A DNA stretch of 64,000 nucleotides, from NCBI GenBank assembly GCA_945878845.1, contig CAMCUB010000007.1:48725-112724 (forward strand), in the 5' to 3' direction. How positions within the stretch are numbered: the first letter of the stretch is position 1; every line of letters starts with the position of its first letter. This stretch comes from Erythrobacter sanguineus (GTDB lineage Bacteria > Pseudomonadota > Alphaproteobacteria > Sphingomonadales > Sphingomonadaceae). A program made the translations under genes and the position numbers. This document shows, piece after piece, positions 31,265-54,699 of the stretch. Under the pieces are notes generated by a model. That model did not search any database. It saw only the letters and a list, made by a program, of their open reading frames with translations, and was not told where the DNA came from.

Positions 31265-32239
31265 TTAAATCTCTCCGCCCGTCAGCCGCTGGCACAGCAA
31301 ATCGAGCTGGTCGAGCGTCGTATAGCGGATCGTGATCGTGCCCTTGCGCGGGTCGCTTTCGGGCTTGATCTTGACCGTCAGGCCGAGAAATTCCTCGAGA
31401 TGCTGCTGCACCGCGACGATATCGGCGTTCTCGGTGCTGAGATAGGCGGGCTCGGCAGCGCGCTCCGGGCGCTTGGCCGGCTTGCGGGTGAGCGTCTCGA
31501 TATCGCGCACCGACAGCCCCTCGGCCACCGCGATCGCGGCCAGTTCGCGCGCGTCATCGCGGCCGATCAGCGCGCGGGCGTGGCCCATGGTCAGCTTGCC
31601 CTCCTGGATCAGGTCGAGCACATCATCCGGCAGCGTCACCAGCCGCATCATGTTGGCGACATGGCTGCGCGACTTTTCGACCATCTTTGCGATGTCGACC
31701 TGGATCAGCCCCTCTTCCTCGGCGAGGCGGTGATAGGCGCGCGCTTCCTCGACCGGATTGAGGTCCTCGCGCTGCAGGTTCTCGATCAGCGCGAGCGCCA
31801 TGACCTCGCGGTCTGACAGGGCGCGCACCAGCGCCGGGATCTCGTGCAGCCGCGCCTTCTGCGCCGCGCGCCAGCGGCGCTCGCCCGCGACCAGCTGGTA
31901 GCCGTCACCGGCGGGATTCGGGCGGACGATGATGGGTTGGATCACGCCCCTTGTCGCGATCGACGCGGCCAGCTCCTCGAGCGCGGCCTCATCGAAATAT
32001 TTGCGCGGGTTGCCGGGGAGCGGCTTGATGCTCGCCAGCGGCAGCATGCGCAGCGGCGAGGCACCGGGCTGCGGAGCCTCGGCCGCCGCAGTGGCAATCT
32101 CCTCGCGGCGCACCAGGGGCTCTTCGCGGCGGGTCTCGCCCAGCAAGGCGCCCAGCCCCTTGCCAAGGCGGCGCGGCTTGTCCGTTCCGGCGCGTGAAAT
32201 TGCCGTGATTTCAGCGGTTTGGTCAGTATTATCGGTCAT
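31265..32239 (-). CDS. parB: Chromosome partitioning protein ParB
   Basis: KPRRLGKGLGALLGE; KPLPGNPRKYFDEAALEELAASIATRGVIQPIIVRP; YQLVAGERRWRAAQKARLHEIPAL (CTPase motif GERRWRA). Confidence 0.97.
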   Translation of the reverse strand: MTDNTDQTAEITAISRAGTDKPRRLGKGLGALLGETRREEPLVRREEIATAAAEAPQPGASPLRMLPLASIKPLPGNPRKYFDEAALEELAASIATRGVIQPIIVRPNPAGDGYQLVAGERRWRAAQKARLHEIPALVRALSDREVMALALIENLQREDLNPVEEARAYHRLAEEEGLIQVDIAKMVEKSRSHVANMMRLVTLPDDVLDLIQEGKLTMGHARALIGRDDARELAAIAVAEGLSVRDIETLTRKPAKRPERAAEPAYLSTENADIVAVQQHLEEFLGLTVKIKPESDPRKGTITIRYTTLDQLDLLCQRLTGGEI

Positions 32240-33012
32240 GCCGCTTGTCTTTCTGCGGGAAAGCGCCCGATCAGTTCGCGTGCCAGCGCCATATAGGCGC
32301 GGCTGCCGGTGCAATGCTGGTCATAGATCAGCGCAGGCAGGCCGTGGCTCGGCGCCTCGGACAGGCGGACGTTGCGCGGGATCACCGTCTCGAACACCAG
32401 CTTGCCGAGGCAATCGCGCACGTCGTCCGACACCTGGTCGGTCAGCCGGTTGCGCCGGTCATACATGGTGAGCGCGACACCGATGATGCCGAGCTCGGGA
32501 TTGAAGCGCTGCTGCACCTGATCGACCGTCTGGAGCAGCTGGCTGAGGCCTTCCAGCGCGAAGAACTCGCATTGCAGCGGCACCAGCAGTGTGTTGGCGG
32601 CGCAGAGCGCGTTGAGCGTCAGCAGGCCGAGCGAGGGCGGGCAGTCGATGAAGCAGATGTCGTGCCCGGTATAGCCGGCCAGCGCGCGGTGGAGCCGGTG
32701 GGTGCGACCCTCGACCGCGACCAGCTCGACCTCGGCGCCCGACAGATCGACCGTCGCCGGGATGATGTCGAGCCGGGGGATCGCAGTCGGGACGATGGCT
32801 GATGCCAGCGCCACCTCGTCGACCAGCAGGTCATAGCTCGACACTTCGCGGTCGGCCGCGTGCACGCCCAGACCGGTCGAGGCATTGCCCTGCGGATCGA
32901 GGTCGATCAGCAGCGTGCGCCAGCCGGTCGCGGCCATCGCGGTGGCGATGTTGATCGCGGTGGTGGTCTTGCCCACTCCGCCCTTCTGATTAGCAATCGC
33001 GATGGTCAGCAT
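32236..33012 (-). CDS. parA: Chromosome partitioning ATPase ParA
   Basis: MLTIAIANQKGGVGKTTTAINIATAMA deviant Walker A; LLIDLDPQGNASTGLG. Confidence 0.97.
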   Translation of the reverse strand: MLTIAIANQKGGVGKTTTAINIATAMAATGWRTLLIDLDPQGNASTGLGVHAADREVSSYDLLVDEVALASAIVPTAIPRLDIIPATVDLSGAEVELVAVEGRTHRLHRALAGYTGHDICFIDCPPSLGLLTLNALCAANTLLVPLQCEFFALEGLSQLLQTVDQVQQRFNPELGIIGVALTMYDRRNRLTDQVSDDVRDCLGKLVFETVIPRNVRLSEAPSHGLPALIYDQHCTGSRAYMALARELIGRFPAERQAA

Positions 33013-33068: not shown

Positions 33069-33695
33069 TTAGACCTTCACGATGATCCCCGCCTCGGGAT
33101 CGGTCAAGGAATGTTTCACGTGAAACATTGCCCGAATCGAAGGCTTGAGCGCCTCCAATTCCTGCGCCGCAGAGCGCCCCTTGGGCAACACGTAAGCCGT
33201 GGCCCTTGTGGAGAAGGGTGCGGATAGATCGAGAAGTTTGGGGAGAGGTGCGAAGGCACGTGCCGAAATGGCGCGGGCGGGGAAAGGCGCGACGCGTTCG
33301 AGGCGTTGGCCTTCGACGCGGCATTTCGAGAGTTTCAGGGTGTCGATGACCCGCTGGAGGAACTCCACCCGCCGCGCGCGTGATTCGACCAGCACCACGG
33401 GCATGTTGGGGTTGAGTGCGGCGATCACCAGTCCGGGGAAGCCGGGGCCGCTGCCGAGATCGAGCCAGGGCCCACCCGCATTCGCGCCCAATGTTTCACG
33501 TGAAACATTTTCGATGAGCTGCGCCGAGTCGGCCATATGCCGCTGCCACAGGTGTGGCTCGGTCGCTTTGGCGATGAGGTTCTGGCGCTGGTTCTCCTCC
33601 AGCACCAGCGCGGCGAAGGCCTCAAGCCGCGCCATGCCCGCCGCGTCGGTCAGCCCGGCAACATAGGCGCGGGCTTCTTCCTCGGTGGTAATCAT
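33069..33695 (-). CDS. rsmG: 16S rRNA (guanine527-N7)-methyltransferase RsmG
   Basis: [40 protein letters not shown]; contains two translated parS sites. Confidence 0.95.
33112..33127. other. parS site (perfect 16-bp palindrome), inside rsmG
   Basis: tgtttcacgtgaaaca. Confidence 0.95.
33492..33507. other. parS site (perfect), inside rsmG
   Basis: tgtttcacgtgaaaca. Confidence 0.95.
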
Positions 33696-35542
33696 GCCGC
33701 GAGCCTGCGCCGCGCATGGACCAGCAGCGCCGAGAGTGCCGCCGGCGTCACCCCCGGCACACGGCCCGCCGCCGCCAGCGTCCCCGGCGCGGCCTTAGTC
33801 AGGCGCTCGATCATCTCGTTGGAGAGGCCCGGCACCTCGACATAGGGGAAGTCCGATGGCAGCGGCAGCGCCTCGCTCGCGCGCAGATCGCGCAGCTCGG
33901 AGTCCTGCCGCGCGAGGTAGGGCGCATAGGCGGCATCCTCGGCCATTTCCTCGGCCAGCAGCGGGTCGAGCGCGGTGATCTCGCCCAGCCACGGGGCGAG
34001 CGCCTCGGGGGTGACGCCGTCATAGCGCAACCATTCGGCGAGCGGCTTCTCGCCGTGGTCGCGCCGCACCGGCAGGCCGAGACCGGCAAGTTCGCTGGCG
34101 TGGACCTTCTCGGAATGTTTCACGTGAAACATTTTGCGGGTCTCCTCGCGGCGCTCCCACCACATGCGGCGCTCCTCGCCGATGCAGCCCGCCTCGATGC
34201 CGAGGACCGTCAGGCGCGACGCGGCATTGTTGGCGCGCAGCCGCAGGCGGTATTCGGCGCGGGCGGTGAGCATGCGGTAGGGCTCGGAGACGCCCTGCAG
34301 GGTGAGGTCGTCGACCATCACCGCGATGTAGCTGTTCGCGCGGTCGAGGCTAGGCGCCGCCTTGCCCAAAGCCGCCGCAGCCGCCTCCAGCCCCGCAACC
34401 AGCCCCTGTGCGGCCGCCTCCTCGTAGCCGGTCGTACCGTTGATCTGCCCCGCGCAATAGAGCCCCGGGATCGCCCGCACCTGCAGGTCGGGCGTCAGCG
34501 CGCGCGGGTCGATATGATCATACTCCACAGCATAGCCCGGCTGCACGATCTCGGCGCGCGCGCAGCCCGGCATCGTCCGCACCACCAGCTCCTGCACGTC
34601 CACAGGCAGCGAGGTGCTGATGCCGTTGGGATAGACCATATGCGTGTCCAGCCCCTCGGGCTCGAGGAACACCTGATGCCCCTCGCGGTCGCCGAAGCGG
34701 TGGATCTTGTCCTCGATTGAGGGGCAATAGCGCGGCCCCGCCGCCGCAATCGCGCCCGAGAACAGCGGCGAGCGGTGGAGATTGGCGCGGATCGCGTCAT
34801 GGCCCGCCTGCGTCGTGCGGGTGATCGCGCAGAACACCTGCGGGTTGATGCGACGCTCGGTGAGCGGGGACATGGTCCAGGCCTCCCCATCGGAGGGTTG
34901 CTCCTCGAGCACCGCCCAGTCGATGGTCCGGCCATCCAGACGCGGCGGGGTGCCGGTCTTGAGGCGTGCCATCGGGAGGTCGGCCCCGCGCAGCTGCTGC
35001 GCGAGGCGATGCGCGGCATTCTCGCCAATGCGCCCGCCCTCGAAGCGCTCCTCGCCGCGGAACAGGATGCCGCCGAGGAAGGTGCCGGTGCACAGCACCA
35101 CGCGCGGGGCTTCGAGGATGGTGCCGTCCGCCAGCTCCAGCCCGGCGACCGCCCCACCCTTCAACACCAGCGCGGCGGCCTCGCCCTGCACCAGCGTGAG
35201 GCCCGGTTGCCCGCGCACCGCCGCCTGCACCGCCGCCTTGAACCGCACCCGGTCGGCCTGCACGCGCGGGCCCCACACGGCGCTGCCCTTGGAGCGGTTG
35301 AGCATCCGGTAGTGGATCGCCCCCGCATCCGCCGCGCGGCCCAGCACCCCGTCGAGCGCATCGACCTCGCGCACCAGGTGCCCCTTGCCGAGACCGCCGA
35401 TGGCCGGATTGCAGCTCATCGCGCCGACGGCGGCGAGGTCAAAGCTCACCAACGCCGTGCGCGCGCCCATCCGCGCCGCCGCGCAGGCAGCCTCCACCCC
35501 GGCGTGACCGCCGCCGATGACGAGGACGTCGAAGGATTGCAT
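33692..35542 (-). CDS. mnmG: tRNA uridine-5-carboxymethylaminomethyl modification enzyme MnmG (GidA)
   Basis: [65 protein letters not shown]. Confidence 0.97.
34116..34131. other. parS site (perfect), inside mnmG
   Basis: tgtttcacgtgaaaca. Confidence 0.95.
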
Positions 35543-35612
35543 GGGCGGGCAGATAGGGTGCGGGGGGCGAATCGTCAAAGATGATTCGTGGCTGAGCTAG
35601 GGCGCTCAGGAA

Positions 35613-35628
35613 TGTTTCACGTGAAACA
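35613..35628. other. parS site (perfect), mnmE-mnmG intergenic
   Basis: tgtttcacgtgaaaca. Confidence 0.96.
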
Positions 35629-35662
35629 TTGGGGGCAGGGTTTGAGCATGGATGAGGCAAAA

Positions 35663-35678
35663 TGTTTCACGTGAAACA
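35663..35678. other. parS site (perfect), mnmE-mnmG intergenic
   Basis: tgtttcacgtgaaaca. Confidence 0.96.
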
Positions 35679-35711
35679 TTTGGGTGGGGTCGGAGAAGCG
35701 TGAGCCGCCAA

Positions 35712-35727
35712 TGTTTCACGTAAAACA
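35712..35727. other. parS-like site, one mismatch, mnmE-mnmG intergenic
   Basis: tgtttcacgtaaaaca. Confidence 0.8.
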
Positions 35728-35746
35728 TTCAGCGCCGGCGCCCCAC

Positions 35747-37033
35747 TCACTTCCCGATGCAGAACCGCCCAAACAGGGTGTCGAGCATATCCTCGGTCGT
35801 CGCGCGCCCGATCAGCCGGTCGAAGGCGAGGCGCGCGCGGCGCAGTTCCTCCGCGACCAAGAGCGGATCGGACAGGGCCTTCGATGAGCGCAAGGCTTCC
35901 TCCGCTTCCGCAAGCCGGGCGTGCTGGCGGGCATTCAAAGCCGCCTCGCCTGGCTTGGGGAGCGCCGCACGCGCCGCTTCGACCAGCGCGGTCTTGAGCG
36001 CCGCAACCCCCTCGCCCGTCACCGCGGAGAGCGTGAAGCGGGCACCCGGCCTCGCCGCGAAGTCCGGGTGATCGGCCTGCGCAGCGATCTCCCAGGCGCC
36101 TTCCGGCCCCTCGCCCTCGCCCCCCAGCCAAAGCACCGCGTCGGCGCGAGCCAGCGCGCCGCGCGCGCGGTCGATGCCAATCGCCTCGATGGGGTCGGCG
36201 GCCTCACCTTCCCGCAGCCCCGCCGTGTCGACGAAGGTGAAAGGCACGCCGCCGATTGCCACTGCCCGCTCGATCAAGTCGCGCGTCGTTCCCGCGATGG
36301 GCGAGGTGATCGCCGCCTCGCTCTCGACCAGTGCGTTGAACAGGGTCGACTTGCCCGCATTGGGCGGCCCGGCGAGCACCACCCGGACCCCCTCCCCCAG
36401 CCGCTCGGAGCGCGGGCGGGCGAGCCATTCGGCCAGCTCCTCGGCCAGCGCGCCAATGTTCCACGTGAAACATTCGGGGAGATCGGCGGAGTCCTCCTCG
36501 TCCGAGAAATCGAGCACGCCCTCCACCTCGGCCGACAGCACCAGCGCCCGCTCGCGCCACCCTTCAACCTGCCGCGAAAGCGCCCCGCCCGCATTGGCGA
36601 GCGCGGCGGCGCGCTGCAATTCGGTCTCGGCGGAGAGAAGATCGGCCAGCCCTTCGGCCTCGGCGAGGTCGATCCGGCCATTGGCAAAGGCGCGGCGGGT
36701 GAATTCCCCTGGTTCCGCGCGACGTATCCCGCGAAGCGCAGCGAGCGCCCCCTCCACCGCCGCAATCACCGCGCGGCCCCCGTGACAGTGAAATTCAGCG
36801 AGATCCTCACCCGTCGCGGTCGCTGGTCCCGGGAACCACAGCACCAGCGCCTCGTCGAGCAGCGCCCCGTCCGTATCGCGCAACTTGGCCAGCGAGGCCC
36901 GGCGCGGTTCAGGCACCCTCCCCGCCAGCGCCAGCAACGCCTCCCGCGCCGCCGGGCCCGAGACGCGGATCACGCCCACGCCCGCAGGCGGCGCGCCGCT
37001 CGATACCGCGAAGATCGTCTCGGCGGTACTCAC
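35747..37033 (-). CDS. mnmE: tRNA modification GTPase MnmE
   Basis: GTG start VSTAETIFAVSSGAPPAGVGVIRVSGPAAREALLAL; VVLAGPPNAGKSTLFNALVESEAAITSPIAGTTRDLIE; C-terminal FCIGK. Confidence 0.97.
   Translation of the reverse strand: MSTAETIFAVSSGAPPAGVGVIRVSGPAAREALLALAGRVPEPRRASLAKLRDTDGALLDEALVLWFPGPATATGEDLAEFHCHGGRAVIAAVEGALAALRGIRRAEPGEFTRRAFANGRIDLAEAEGLADLLSAETELQRAAALANAGGALSRQVEGWRERALVLSAEVEGVLDFSDEEDSADLPECFTWNIGALAEELAEWLARPRSERLGEGVRVVLAGPPNAGKSTLFNALVESEAAITSPIAGTTRDLIERAVAIGGVPFTFVDTAGLREGEAADPIEAIGIDRARGALARADAVLWLGGEGEGPEGAWEIAAQADHPDFAARPGARFTLSAVTGEGVAALKTALVEAARAALPKPGEAALNARQHARLAEAEEALRSSKALSDPLLVAEELRRARLAFDRLIGRATTEDMLDTLFGRFCIGK
36457..36472. other. parS-like site, one mismatch, inside mnmE
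   Basis: tgttccacgtgaaaca. Confidence 0.8.
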
Positions 37034-37037
37034 AGGC

Positions 37038-37310
37038 TCAGTCGGAGGACTTCTTCTTCGACGCCCCAGGAACGCCACCGGCCGCCGCCTTCATCGAGCC
37101 TTCGACAAAGTTCTGGAACAGCTTCATCCCCATCTGCCCCATCGGCGCCAACGCGCTCGCATATTGCTGGAGCTGGTCGGGGTTCGAGACGCCCTGCATC
37201 GCCTTGGTCATGTTCTCGACATAGACATTATTCGCCGCGCTCACATCCGGCAGGCCCATGAAGTTGCGCGCCTCTTCGGGGGTGCAGTCGATTTCGATGG
37301 TGATCTTCAC
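37038..37310 (-). CDS. Conserved hypothetical (DUF6489-like) small protein
   Basis: GTG start VKITIEIDCTPEEARNFMGLPDVSAANNVYVENMTKAMQG...GMKLFQNFVEGSMKAAA. Confidence 0.7.
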   Translation of the reverse strand: MKITIEIDCTPEEARNFMGLPDVSAANNVYVENMTKAMQGVSNPDQLQQYASALAPMGQMGMKLFQNFVEGSMKAAAGGVPGASKKKSSD

Positions 37311-37404
37311 GGGCGCTGGTCTCCTCTCCTGCGTCTCCCCCCTCATTTGCGCTTGGCACGCCCGCAAGGCAAGGGATAGACCTAGGGCCAAAGGAGAGAC
37401 CCCC

Positions 37405-38103
37405 GTGAGCCTCAATGAAACCATCCCCCCGCTTGAAGGTGACGCGAGCTTCGCCGCCTATGTCGCCAAGCCCGCAGGGAGCCCGCGCGGTGCAATCATC
37501 GTCATCCAGGAGATCTTCGGGGTGAACCCCGGCATCCGCCAGAAGTGCGACAAGCTGGCGGCCGAGGGCTACCTCGCCGTCGCGCCCGATCTGTTCTGGC
37601 GGATCGAACCGGGCATCGAGCTCGATCCCGATGTCGAGCCCGAATTCCAGCGCGCGCTTGGCCTGTTCGGGGAGTTCGACCAGGACGCCGGAATCCGCGA
37701 TATCGAGGCGACCATCCACCACATCCGCCGCACCCTCGGCGTCGAGAAGGTCGGCTGCGTCGGCTACTGCCTTGGCGGGCGGCTCGCCTATATGACCGCT
37801 GCGCGCACCGATATTGATGCGAGCGTCGGCTATTACGGCGTCGGCATCGACGGGCTGCTCCACGAGAAGCACGCGATTGCGCATCCGCTAATGCTCCACA
37901 TCCCGACGAACGACGGCTTTGTTCCACGTGAAACACAGGCGGCGATGCATGAGGGGCTTGGCGATCACCCCAAGGTGACGCTGCACGACTACGAAGGGCT
38001 CGACCACGGCTTCGCCACCGAGCACGGCAAGCGCCGCCACGAGGAGGCAGCCAACCTCGCCGACGGGCGCACCGCCGCATTCTTCGCGCAAGCTCTCGGG
38101 TGA
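37405..38103 (+). CDS. Dienelactone hydrolase family protein
   Basis: GTG start; GAIIVIQEIFGVNPGIRQKCDKLAAEGYLAVAPDLFWR; VGCVGYCLGGRLAYM; HGF motif GLDHGFA. Confidence 0.92.
   Translation: MSLNETIPPLEGDASFAAYVAKPAGSPRGAIIVIQEIFGVNPGIRQKCDKLAAEGYLAVAPDLFWRIEPGIELDPDVEPEFQRALGLFGEFDQDAGIRDIEATIHHIRRTLGVEKVGCVGYCLGGRLAYMTAARTDIDASVGYYGVGIDGLLHEKHAIAHPLMLHIPTNDGFVPRETQAAMHEGLGDHPKVTLHDYEGLDHGFATEHGKRRHEEAANLADGRTAAFFAQALG
37920..37935. other. parS-like site, one mismatch, inside dienelactone hydrolase gene
   Basis: tgttccacgtgaaaca. Confidence 0.75.
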
Positions 38104-41986: not shown

Positions 41987-43003
41987 TCAACCTCTTAGGG
42001 CCGCGAGCAATTCCTCGACATGCGAAATCGGCGTGAACTGCCCGATCCCGTGGCCGAGGTTGAAGACATGCGGGCGATCCTCGAAGGCATCGATGATGGT
42101 CTTGACCCGCGCCGCCACCGCCGGACCGCCAGCCTCGAGCAGCAGCGGATCGAAATTGCCCTGCACCGGCATGCCTTCGGGCAGGCTCTGGTGCGCCCAG
42201 ACCGGATCGAGCGTCTCGTCGAGCCCGACCGCGTCCACCCCGGTCTCGCGCGCATAGGCCGGGAGCTTGGCGCCCGCGCCCTTGGGGAAGCCGATCACGG
42301 GGGTATCGGGGTGCGATTGCTTGAGCTTGGCGGTGATCGCGGCATTGGGCGCAATCACCCACTTCTCGAACTGGTCGGGGGCAAGGCTGCCCGCCCACGA
42401 GTCGAACAACTGCACCGCTTCCGCTCCCGCATCGATCTGGCCGCGCAGATAGGTGACCGAGACCTCGACGATCGCATCGATGATCGCCTGCATCCGCGCC
42501 GGATCGCGATAGGCGAGCAGCCGCGCCGGGCCGTGATCCTTGGAGCCTTCGCCCGCGATCATGTAGGTGGCGACCGTCCAGGGGCTCCCCGCAAAGCCTA
42601 GCATCGTCACATCCGGGCCGATCATGCCGCGGGTCAGGCGCACGGTCTCGTAAACCGGCTCGAACCGCTCGAAGGCGGGGGTGAACGAGTCCAGCTCCAC
42701 CTCGAGCAGCGTCGGCGTAAGGTGCGGGCCCTCGCCAGCGGCAAAGGTCAGACCCTGCCCCATGGCGTGCGGCACGATCAGGATGTCGGAGAACAGGATC
42801 GCACCATCAAACCCGAACCGCCGGATCGGCTGCACGGTGATCTCGGCTGCGGCCTCGCTGTCGTAAACCAGCTCGAGGAAGCCGCCCTTGTCGGCCCGAA
42901 GTTCCCGATATTCAGGCAGATAGCGCCCAGCTTGGCGCATTAGCCAGACGGGAGCGACGTCCTGGCGGACACCTTTGAGCGTTTCGAGAAGCGGACCGGG
43001 CAT
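41987..43003 (-). CDS. hemE: Uroporphyrinogen decarboxylase
   Basis: VRQDVAPVWLMRQAGRYLPEYRELRADKGGFLELVYDSEAAAEITVQPIRRFGFDGAILFSDILIVPHAMG. Confidence 0.97.
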   Translation of the reverse strand: MPGPLLETLKGVRQDVAPVWLMRQAGRYLPEYRELRADKGGFLELVYDSEAAAEITVQPIRRFGFDGAILFSDILIVPHAMGQGLTFAAGEGPHLTPTLLEVELDSFTPAFERFEPVYETVRLTRGMIGPDVTMLGFAGSPWTVATYMIAGEGSKDHGPARLLAYRDPARMQAIIDAIVEVSVTYLRGQIDAGAEAVQLFDSWAGSLAPDQFEKWVIAPNAAITAKLKQSHPDTPVIGFPKGAGAKLPAYARETGVDAVGLDETLDPVWAHQSLPEGMPVQGNFDPLLLEAGGPAVAARVKTIIDAFEDRPHVFNLGHGIGQFTPISHVEELLAALRG

Positions 43004-43318
43004 AGGACTCCTTAGAACAATTATATTCAATTTATAAAGAGGATGATGGAGTATGTTGGCCCTGTGGAAAGCGGGAATTACCGGTTCCTGCCCGGTTACC
43101 CCCGTTCAAACCCCTAGTCCCTGCCCCCATCGAATCCGCATGGATTGGACGTCAAGCGAGCTTTATCCCCACTCTTCCCAGCCTGTCGACAAAACTTGTC
43201 CCGTGTGCGCAAATAGGCTTGCCGAAAGCTTGCGAGCGGGCATGAAAATCCCTCCCCAGCTTGTCCGCTTGCCCCTCCCGTGGTTTATGCGGCGATCTGT
43301 CCACAGGGCTCCGATGGC
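43004..43318. other. oriC: Predicted chromosomal replication origin (oriC) region
   Basis: hemE / ppsR (RP001-type, DUF299) intergenic interval as in Caulobacter; AT-rich patch aacaattatattcaatttataaagagg at ~43,016-43,042; DnaA-box-like ttatcccca (43163-43171), ctgtccaca (43297-43305) and the reverse-oriented tgtggaaag (43063-43071); gene orientation switches here. Confidence 0.75.
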
Positions 43319-44164
43319 ATGAACCGACTCAATCTCCACCTCGTTTCGGATTCGACCGGCGAGACGCTGGAAATGATCGCCAAGGCGGCGCTGGCGCAGT
43401 TCGACAACCCGGCCGTCAACCGCCATTTCTGGCCGATGGTCCGATCGTTGCAGCACATGGATCGCATCGTCCCCGATCTCGCCGCGCATCCCGGCCTGGT
43501 GCTCTACACGCTGGTGAACCCCGAGACGAGGAAGCGCCTCGAGGAGCATTGCCGCCACTTGGGCCTGCCCGCCGTGCCGGTGCTCGATCAGGTGACCGCG
43601 GCGCTCGAAAGCCAGCTCGGCCAGGAAGCGCATGGCCGCCCGGGCCGCCAGCACATGATGGACGAGAGCTACTTCAAGCGCGTCGATGCGATCCAGTACA
43701 CCATCGCGCATGACGATGGCTTGGCGCATGAGGAGTGGGAGCAGGCCGATATCGTGCTGGTCGGCGTGTCGCGCTCCTCGAAGACGCCAACCTCGATCTA
43801 CCTCGCCAACCGCGGCTACAAGGTCGCCAACATTCCGTTGGTGGTCGAGAGCCCCCCGCCCGCGACGCTCTACCGGCTGCGGCATCCACTGGTGGTGGGG
43901 CTGACGACCTCGCCCGAACGCCTGATCCAGATCCGCCGCAACCGGCTGCTCTCGCTCAACGAGGCGACCGAGACGGCGTACGTGGACAACGACAAGGTCA
44001 AGGCCGAGCTGCAATTTGCCCGGCGGATGTTCGGCGATAATGGCTGGCCGGTGATCGACGTCACCCGCCGCTCGATCGAGGAAACCGCGGCGGCGATCAT
44101 CCGGCTGGCGCAGGAACGGGGCCGCAAGCCCGCAAGCGAGGGCGGGACGGGGACGCCGATATGA
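43319..44164 (+). CDS. Pyruvate, water dikinase / PPDK regulatory protein (DUF299, RP001-type)
   Basis: MNRLNLHLVSDSTGETLEMIAKAALAQFDNPAVNRHFWPMVRS; DIVLVGVSRSSKTPTSIYLANRGYKVANIPLV. Confidence 0.96.
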   Translation: MNRLNLHLVSDSTGETLEMIAKAALAQFDNPAVNRHFWPMVRSLQHMDRIVPDLAAHPGLVLYTLVNPETRKRLEEHCRHLGLPAVPVLDQVTAALESQLGQEAHGRPGRQHMMDESYFKRVDAIQYTIAHDDGLAHEEWEQADIVLVGVSRSSKTPTSIYLANRGYKVANIPLVVESPPPATLYRLRHPLVVGLTTSPERLIQIRRNRLLSLNEATETAYVDNDKVKAELQFARRMFGDNGWPVIDVTRRSIEETAAAIIRLAQERGRKPASEGGTGTPI

Positions 44165-52498: not shown

Positions 52499-54699
52499 TT
52501 CGGCGCGCTCTGGCCCAGCCAGCGGTCCAGCCACCCGAACACCGTCTGGTGCCATTGCAGCGAGTTCTTCGCGCCCAGCACCCAGTGGTTCTCGTCAGGG
52601 AAGACCAGCAGCTGCGCGGGGATGCCGCGTTCCTGCAGCGCTGTGAAGCTCATCAGGCCCTGCGAATAGGGGACGCGGTAATCCTTCTGCCCGGTGACGA
52701 CCAGCATCGGGGTCTTCCACTTGTCGACGTGGTTGGCGGGGTTCCACTTCTCGTAGATAGCGCGGGCTTGTTCATAGGTGCCGCCATGGTCCCAGCGCGG
52801 GAACCACAATTCCTCGGTCGAATAATACATGGAGCGGTTGTCGAAGATGCCGTCGTGCTGGACGATGCACTTGAAGCGGTCGGGCCACTGGCCGGCGATC
52901 CAGTTCACCATGTAGCCGCCGTAGCTGGCGCCCATCGCGCAGGCGTTGGCACCGTCGATCTGGGTGTCGAGCGCGATGCCGGCTTCAAAGCCCTTCTGCA
53001 GGTCCTCGAGCGGCCATCCGCCCCAGTTCTGGTTGATCGCGTCGGTGAAGGCCTGTCCGTAGCCGGTCGACCCGTGGAAATCGACCGAGATCACCGCATA
53101 GCCTTGGCTGGCGAGGACGCGCGGGTTCCAGCGGTTCGACCAGCTGTCGTTGAAGCTCCCCTGCGGGCCGCCGTGGATGTAGAGGATCGCGGGGATCGGC
53201 CCGGTCTGATCGGCGAGGCGGGTGAGCTGGCCCCACACCGTGTCGCCATTCGCGCCGGTGAAGCTGAAGCGGCGGGTGACGATGCTCGCCATCGCCCCCA
53301 TGCGGGTGGTGGCGACATCGGTTAGCGGGCGAGCCTGCCCCATGCCGTCGGACAGGAACAGCTCGGCCGGTTGCCCCAGCGAATCGCGGGTGAACAGCGC
53401 GCCGCCCTTGGGCAGGGGCACGAGATTGGCGATATGCGCCTCGTTCCCGGCCATCAGGTTCAATTCGGTGACCTTGCCGCTGGCGATGTCGATGCGGAAG
53501 GCCGGGGTGTCGAGCACCTTTTGCGCGGTGGCGATCAGGCTCTTGCTGTCGGCGCTCCATGCGAGGCTGCCGAAGGAGAGGTCGGTGTCCTTGGTCAGGT
53601 TGCGCACCTCCCCGGACTTCACATCCATCAGCTGCACCGCCTGCCTGTCCGCCTCGTAGGTCGGACGCTCCATGGCGAGCCAGGCGAGCCACCGGCCATC
53701 GGGCGAGACGGTGGGGGCGAGGTCCATCGCCGTGTTGGCGGCGGTCAGCAGCTTGGGGGCCGCGCCGGTGAGGTCGGAGGCGTAGATGTCGAGATTGGTC
53801 GAGGAGGGCTCGTCTGCGTTCGAAAGGCGCGCGGTGAAGTAGAGCGCCTTGCCGTCGGGCGAGAAGGCGAGTTCCTCGGCTCCGCCAAAGGGCATGGTCG
53901 GCGTGTCGGCGGTGATGCCGGTGGCGGGGTCCTTGCCGTCGACCGGCTGGCCCTCACCCGTGACGACGCCGCCGGTCAGCGGGTAGACGAAAATGCGGTT
54001 GTGGAGGCCCGGGGTCGCCCAACGGTCCCAATGGCGCACGAAGCCGTCCTTGGCGTCATAGAGTCGCCCGGTGCCGGGGCCGGGGGTGTAGGGCGTGGCG
54101 GCGTCGGCGCAGCCGAAGCTCGGGCAGTCGCGCGGCACTTCGCCCCACACTGCGATGCTCGCGCCATTGGGGGCGAGCTTGAAACCGGCGATGTCGCGCT
54201 CGGTTGAGGGGGTGACGAGCTGCGGGGTGCCTGCGGTGCCATCCTTGGCGAGGGTCACGCGCCACACGCGCGACAGGGTGGGCGGCTGCTTGTCGAGGTG
54301 AATTGCGTTCTTCTCGTCGATCTCGCTGCTCAGGAAATAGAGCGCACCGTCCGCACCAAAAGCAAGGTCCGAGGCTTTGAGCCCGAGATCGAGCGCCACC
54401 GGCGCGTTACCCGGCCTGGCGAGGTCGATCAGGTAATGCGTCGGTGAGCGCTTCAGGCGCGCCGGATCGGTGATGGTGACGCTGTAGACCGCCAGCGTCC
54501 CCTCGCGGTTCACCGCCGGGGCGCCGAGGCGCGGGAGGGTGACGAGATCCTCGGCGGTCATCGGCGGAGCGGCAACGCCGGGGACGACCGATGCGGCTTG
54601 CGCGCGGGCGGGCAGGTCCTCGGCCGCGAGCGGCGCGGAGAAAGCGAAAGCGGCGAACGTGACTGGAATCAGGGCGCCGAAAGCAGTTAAGCGATGCAT
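52495..54699 (-). CDS. S9 family peptidase (acylaminoacyl peptidase-like)
   Basis: [85 protein letters not shown]. Confidence 0.93.

Follow-up and report, generated by a model that had tools for sequence, protein, structure and literature searches.

The divergent gap between hemE and ppsR at positions 43004-43318 of the 64-kb stretch of DNA analysed here (hereinafter the window) raises the question of whether it houses the chromosomal replication origin (oriC), as the original prediction had proposed mainly on synteny. The window is part of a 112,724-bp contig (C7) in a 57-contig draft genome of 3.22 Mb that is 99.99% complete, and its nearest relatives by sequence are Erythrobacter and Porphyrobacter. 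We conclude with high confidence that 43004-43318 is the oriC of this Erythrobacter/Porphyrobacter-like sphingomonad; the proposal is now supported by the neighbouring parAB/parS cluster, a local peak of DnaA boxes, retention of the gap across the family, perfect boxes and trios in its distant members, and the GC skew of two relatives. An origin fixed in this way also fixes the replication arms and gene dosage for the draft genome, and the case shows that a family-wide comparison of one gap can confirm an origin predicted from synteny despite its poor boxes.

The gap measures 315 bp and lies between two divergent genes, whose starts are 43003 (minus strand) and 43319 (plus strand).

41987-43003, minus strand: hemE, uroporphyrinogen decarboxylase (PF01208, E=2e-108)
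43004-43318, unstranded: candidate oriC, the divergent hemE/ppsR intergenic gap, delimited by the gene starts and 286-493 bp long in 90 of 90 family genomes
43319-44164, plus strand: ppsR, RP001-type (DUF299) kinase-pyrophosphorylase (PF03618, E=3e-96)

The coding strand changes across the gap, with rho-hemJ-hemE running leftward and ppsR-maf-aroE-coaE-dnaQ rightward. Pfam matches on the rho side are to Rho, UPF0093 (hemJ) and URO-D (hemE), in the stated order, and those on the ppsR side are to Kinase-PPPase (the ppsR/DUF299/RP001 family), Maf, the shikimate dehydrogenase N-domain (aroE), CoaE and an RNase_T exonuclease (dnaQ-type). Together with the gene starts, these matches bear out the gene order and the leftward-to-rightward switch on which the original prediction relied. 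An Rfam search of the gap for RNA elements returned no match at E<=1.

The AT-rich stretch first noticed in the gap from the sequence proves to be the AT maximum of the whole 64 kb. The 50 bp at 43008-43057 are 72% AT, compared with 62% for the next best in the window, and the AT-richest 24 bp of the window, also within the gap, reach 88% (next best, 75%). Four DnaA-box-like sequences accompany this stretch.

43013-43041, unstranded: AT-rich stretch, candidate duplex-unwinding element, marked by the AT-richest 24-mer and 50-mer of the window; relatives are likewise AT-rich on the hemE side
43063-43071, minus strand: DnaA-box-like CTTTCCACA (plus-strand reading TGTGGAAAG), two mismatches to TTATCCACA
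43163-43171, plus strand: DnaA-box-like TTATCCCCA, one mismatch to TTATCCACA, containing the W-box TCCCCA
43184-43192, minus strand: weak DnaA-box-like TTGTCGACA, two mismatches to TTATCCACA
43297-43305, plus strand: DnaA-box-like CTGTCCACA, two mismatches to TTATCCACA, near the site of TTATCCACA in distant relatives

Judged from its composition, the stretch at 43013-43041 is probably the duplex-unwinding element (DUE), and the hemE promoter may also lie within it. When up to two mismatches are allowed, the 315 bp contain four boxes, versus 0.67 in dinucleotide shuffles (P=0.004). Three of them, at 43163, 43297 and 43063, are the 9-mers already singled out from the sequence, and the fourth, at 43184, is weaker. 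Their earlier description as degenerate and few is apt for this genome: perfect TTATCCACA is absent from 43004-43318, and only TTATCCCCA comes within one mismatch of it. The boxes at 43063 and 43297 belong to an inverted repeat whose 13-nt copies, GCCCTGTGGAAAG and CTGTCCACAGGGC, match at 12 of 13 positions; in this repeat (43059-43071 and 43297-43309), GGGC extends the outer boxes past the 9-mer. Across the genome, TTATCC(A/C)CA occurs at 10 sites versus 22 for a reversed control pattern, at spacings never below ~6.9 kb, and the dispersal of these 10 sites in a 99.99%-complete assembly indicates that there is no rival cluster of strong boxes.

The modest boxes of the window gain weight from the same gap in other genomes. 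The divergent hemE/ppsR arrangement is kept in every one of the 90 family genomes that were analysed closely, and their gaps contain on average 4.41 boxes with at most two mismatches versus 0.72 after shuffling, each of the 90 exceeding its own shuffle mean. When box density was profiled over ~+/-10 kb around 61 such loci, the gap bin reached 4.92 per 500 bp (two mismatches at most) and every other bin stayed at or below 1.85. Exact 10-mer counts recover the boxes in just 36-39 of 107 gaps and understate their conservation because single bases vary, for which reason the column view of the alignment is the better one. Distant family members carry, in the same gap, an AT-rich stretch, trios of the TAGTAGTAG (TAGTAG) type and a TGGGGATAA box, and several have a perfect TTATCCACA box close to ppsR. 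The gap is best described as an ordinary, family-typical origin whose DnaA sites are unusually weak yet conserved. Seven of 151 family genomes lack a ppsR match (G021, G022, G075, G106, G138, G140 and G147), six of them small (2.1-2.4 Mb).

Conservation within the gap is concentrated in a few blocks.

43043-43083, unstranded: strongly conserved core adjoining the AT-rich stretch, GATGATGGAGTATGTTGGCCCTGTGGAAAGCGGGAATTACC, recognized by per-base identity
43132-43136, unstranded: GANTC site (GAATC), candidate CcrM methylation site from sequence
43261-43289, plus strand: putative ppsR promoter, TTGTCC, 17 nt, TTTATG, recognized by motif conservation and the block at 43274-43288

Mean per-base identity among 105 relatives is 0.87-0.89 over the part of the core that holds the first box (43049-43078) and 0.64 over the whole gap; a second block, 43274-43288, is 91% identical in the alignment of the relatives' gaps. 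The gap-wide average is equal to or modestly above that of hemE 4-fold sites, which places the constraint on the blocks and not on the gap as a whole. A same-strand GAATC is found in 90 of 107 gaps, mostly within a conserved GCGAATCCGC block, and the copy at 43132-43136 is a possible CcrM methylation site. TTGTC-N17..19-TTTATG occurs in 77 of 107 gaps and CCGTGGTTTATG in 87 of 107. We read the second block as probably the ppsR promoter TTGTCC-N17-TTTATG, an assignment of our own that is unlisted by a strict sigma-70 scan; such scans for promoters and terminators returned none in the gap.

On the hemE side, the gap is flanked by a chromosome-partitioning locus.

31265-33012, minus strand: parA-parB, with ParA AAA_31/CbiA, ParB_N and HTH_ParB domains
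33112-37935, unstranded: eight parS, exact at 33112, 33492, 34116, 35613 and 35663 and with one mismatch at 35712, 36457 and 37920

A whole-genome search with the parS pattern TGTTTCACGTGAAACA yields 18 sites with at most two mismatches, and eight of them fall within these 5 kb. The parA-parB pair shares 31.3-37.1 kb with rsmG, mnmG and mnmE (the latter three named by sequence); the parS cluster lies 5-10 kb from the gap, and parAB and all of these parS are within ~12 kb of it. Lone exact parS sites are also present on contigs C1, C5, C14, C31 and C37, away from the origin cluster.

GC skew of the 64-kb window alone is uninformative. We therefore rely on sampled stretches of three closed or nearly closed relatives (G039, G031 and G014) for chromosome-scale skew, with the contig representing the draft itself. 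In G031, the samples are uniformly negative before the gap and uniformly positive beyond it as far as ~1.8 Mb. For G039, where the gap is at 1,147,840, a switch at 1,135,000-1,145,000 fits best. The sign of the skew accordingly changes within ~13 kb of the gap in both genomes. G014 gives local support only: its chromosome skew is noisy, and the lowest point in the 445-kb stretch read there, which includes the gap, lies 9.3 kb off. Cumulative minima fall at 52,582 (own contig), 497,403 (G014), 1,134,551 (G039) and 340,574 (G031), in four of four sequences displaced from the gap toward ppsR, by 9.3 kb (own contig and G014), ~13 kb (G039) and ~8-9 kb (G031). This 8-13 kb offset limits the skew evidence to a resolution of ~10 kb. 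Coding composition may cause the offset, and the gene content of that stretch is probably shared among the genomes. The data support an origin that anatomy locates inside the gap and that skew locates with a precision of ~10 kb.

In the main alternative, the gap would be only the conserved divergent hemE/ppsR promoter region and replication would start elsewhere nearby, for instance 8-13 kb away on the ppsR side, where the skew minimum falls. The conserved TTGTCC-N17-TTTATG before ppsR does account for one of the two best-conserved blocks, and the shift is to that same side in all four sequences; however, no box excess comparable to that of the gap was found on the ppsR side up to ~9.5 kb among the 61 loci, and a pure promoter would leave unexplained the TTATCCACA boxes and TAG trios beside the AT-rich stretch in distant relatives. 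We consider this alternative very unlikely. Its most specific form, an origin at the own-contig minimum at ~52.6 kb, was rejected since that position is inside the coding region of minus-strand genes and the ppsR side has no box excess.

Origins linked to dnaA are common in bacteria, and the original prediction had pointed to a skew minimum at dnaA or at a parAB-distal locus as the outcome that would speak against it. Applied to the relatives, this check left the prediction standing. An origin at dnaA, with the hemE gap a relic, is barely conceivable. In the draft, dnaA (L001) is on contig C21, separate from that of the gap; in G039 and G031 it is 420 and 330 kb distant, respectively, and the skew to its left and right has the same sign, which rejects it as the origin in those two genomes. 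The parS cluster adjoins hemE, and Sphingomonadales are reported not to conserve dnaA near ori, parAB being the recommended ori anchor (PMC8116508).

With oriC assigned to the hemE/ppsR gap, the window can be compared with known origins. It shares the features of the hemE-linked alphaproteobacterial type (Caulobacter/Rickettsia/Sphingomonadaceae), namely a divergent gap, a box cluster, an AT-rich element, parAB/parS and, in relatives, a skew change. According to PMC4741004, published in 2016, the oriC of Sphingopyxis granuli TFA is predicted close to hemE (DoriC / Ori-Finder), DoriC has hemE-linked predictions of oriC for the majority of Sphingomonadaceae, and the conserved gene cluster is credited to Brassinga et al. 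2001. The origin of the window is therefore a further case of a known type; a literature search turned up no publication that names an oriC in Erythrobacter or Porphyrobacter. The Sphingopyxis granuli TFA and other Sphingomonadaceae origins resemble that of the window in their position at hemE, their gene surroundings and their intergenic putative DnaA boxes and DUE, whereas the boxes of the window are weaker and perfect TTATCCACA is absent.

Caulobacter crescentus Cori combines weak sites, G-boxes TGATCCACA, W-boxes TCCCCA and CtrA sites TTAA-N7-TTAA (PMC4285127, PMC4468827). The gap of the window is similar in its hemE/RP001 position, its weak DnaA sites and the TCCCCA W-box sequence. No G-box TGATCCACA is among its sites within one mismatch of TTATCCACA, and 43004-43318 contains no CtrA site TTAA-N7-TTAA and indeed no TTAA anywhere. 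Given a W-box-like TCCCCA and neither a G-box nor TTAA, the origin appears to work like a weak-box origin that lacks the CtrA sites defining Cori. Cori also has parAB/parS nearby, as in the window.

The box-spacer-DnaA-trio rules of the basal unwinding system (PMC8287927) provide another comparison; they call for at least three trios with a middle A, at most 16 bp from a DnaA box. Distant family members match this system, having TGGGGATAA beside TAGTAGTAG and the AT-rich stretch. The trios of the window itself are degenerate, making its own match insecure: visual inspection gives AAA-GAG-GAT-GAT, with its end 15 nt from TGTGGAAAG, a run for which the clade consensus shifts frame and the AT-rich DNA makes chance high.

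These elements suggest how the origin might operate if replication fires here. DnaA would bind the weak boxes, CTTTCCACA by the AT-rich stretch, TTATCCCCA and the lesser sites in mid-gap, and CTGTCCACA near ppsR, and its assembly would run from the box at 43063 toward 43013-43041. Opening of this AT-rich segment would then allow the DnaB helicase to be loaded and two forks to leave in opposite directions, after which ParB, bound to the parS sites 5-10 kb from the gap, could segregate the new origins. The promoters of hemE and ppsR, directed away from each other, would share the gap with this machinery.

The unusual weakness of the boxes raises the further question of whether DnaA changed along with them. 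Using E. coli residue numbers transferred through alignment to 1J1V, the DnaA of this genome has Y422 and S435 in domain IV, as in 56 of 90 family genomes, and most others have L422 and T435; both positions lie in the DNA-contacting helices. At its third base, the terminal box carries G or C in 35 of the 45 genomes with S435, compared with A or T in 23 of the 28 with T435. On a hemE+ppsR tree, S435 changed ~2 times, leaving only 1-2 independent pairs, which makes the association inseparable from shared descent. That the clade's DnaA (Y422/S435) and its boxes changed together, from TT[A/T]TCCACA to the weaker [T/C]T[G/C]TCCACA with almost no consensus boxes left, is a doubtful proposition and no more than a lead, and we reject the co-change as an established link, the association in the raw table resting on those 1-2 pairs; base composition could be an alternative cause of the box drift. 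The gap comparison nevertheless offers a usable case in which to study possible joint change of DnaA and its sites, and five genomes (G042, G086, G040, G092 and G143) depart from the trend in combining S435 with a perfect box.
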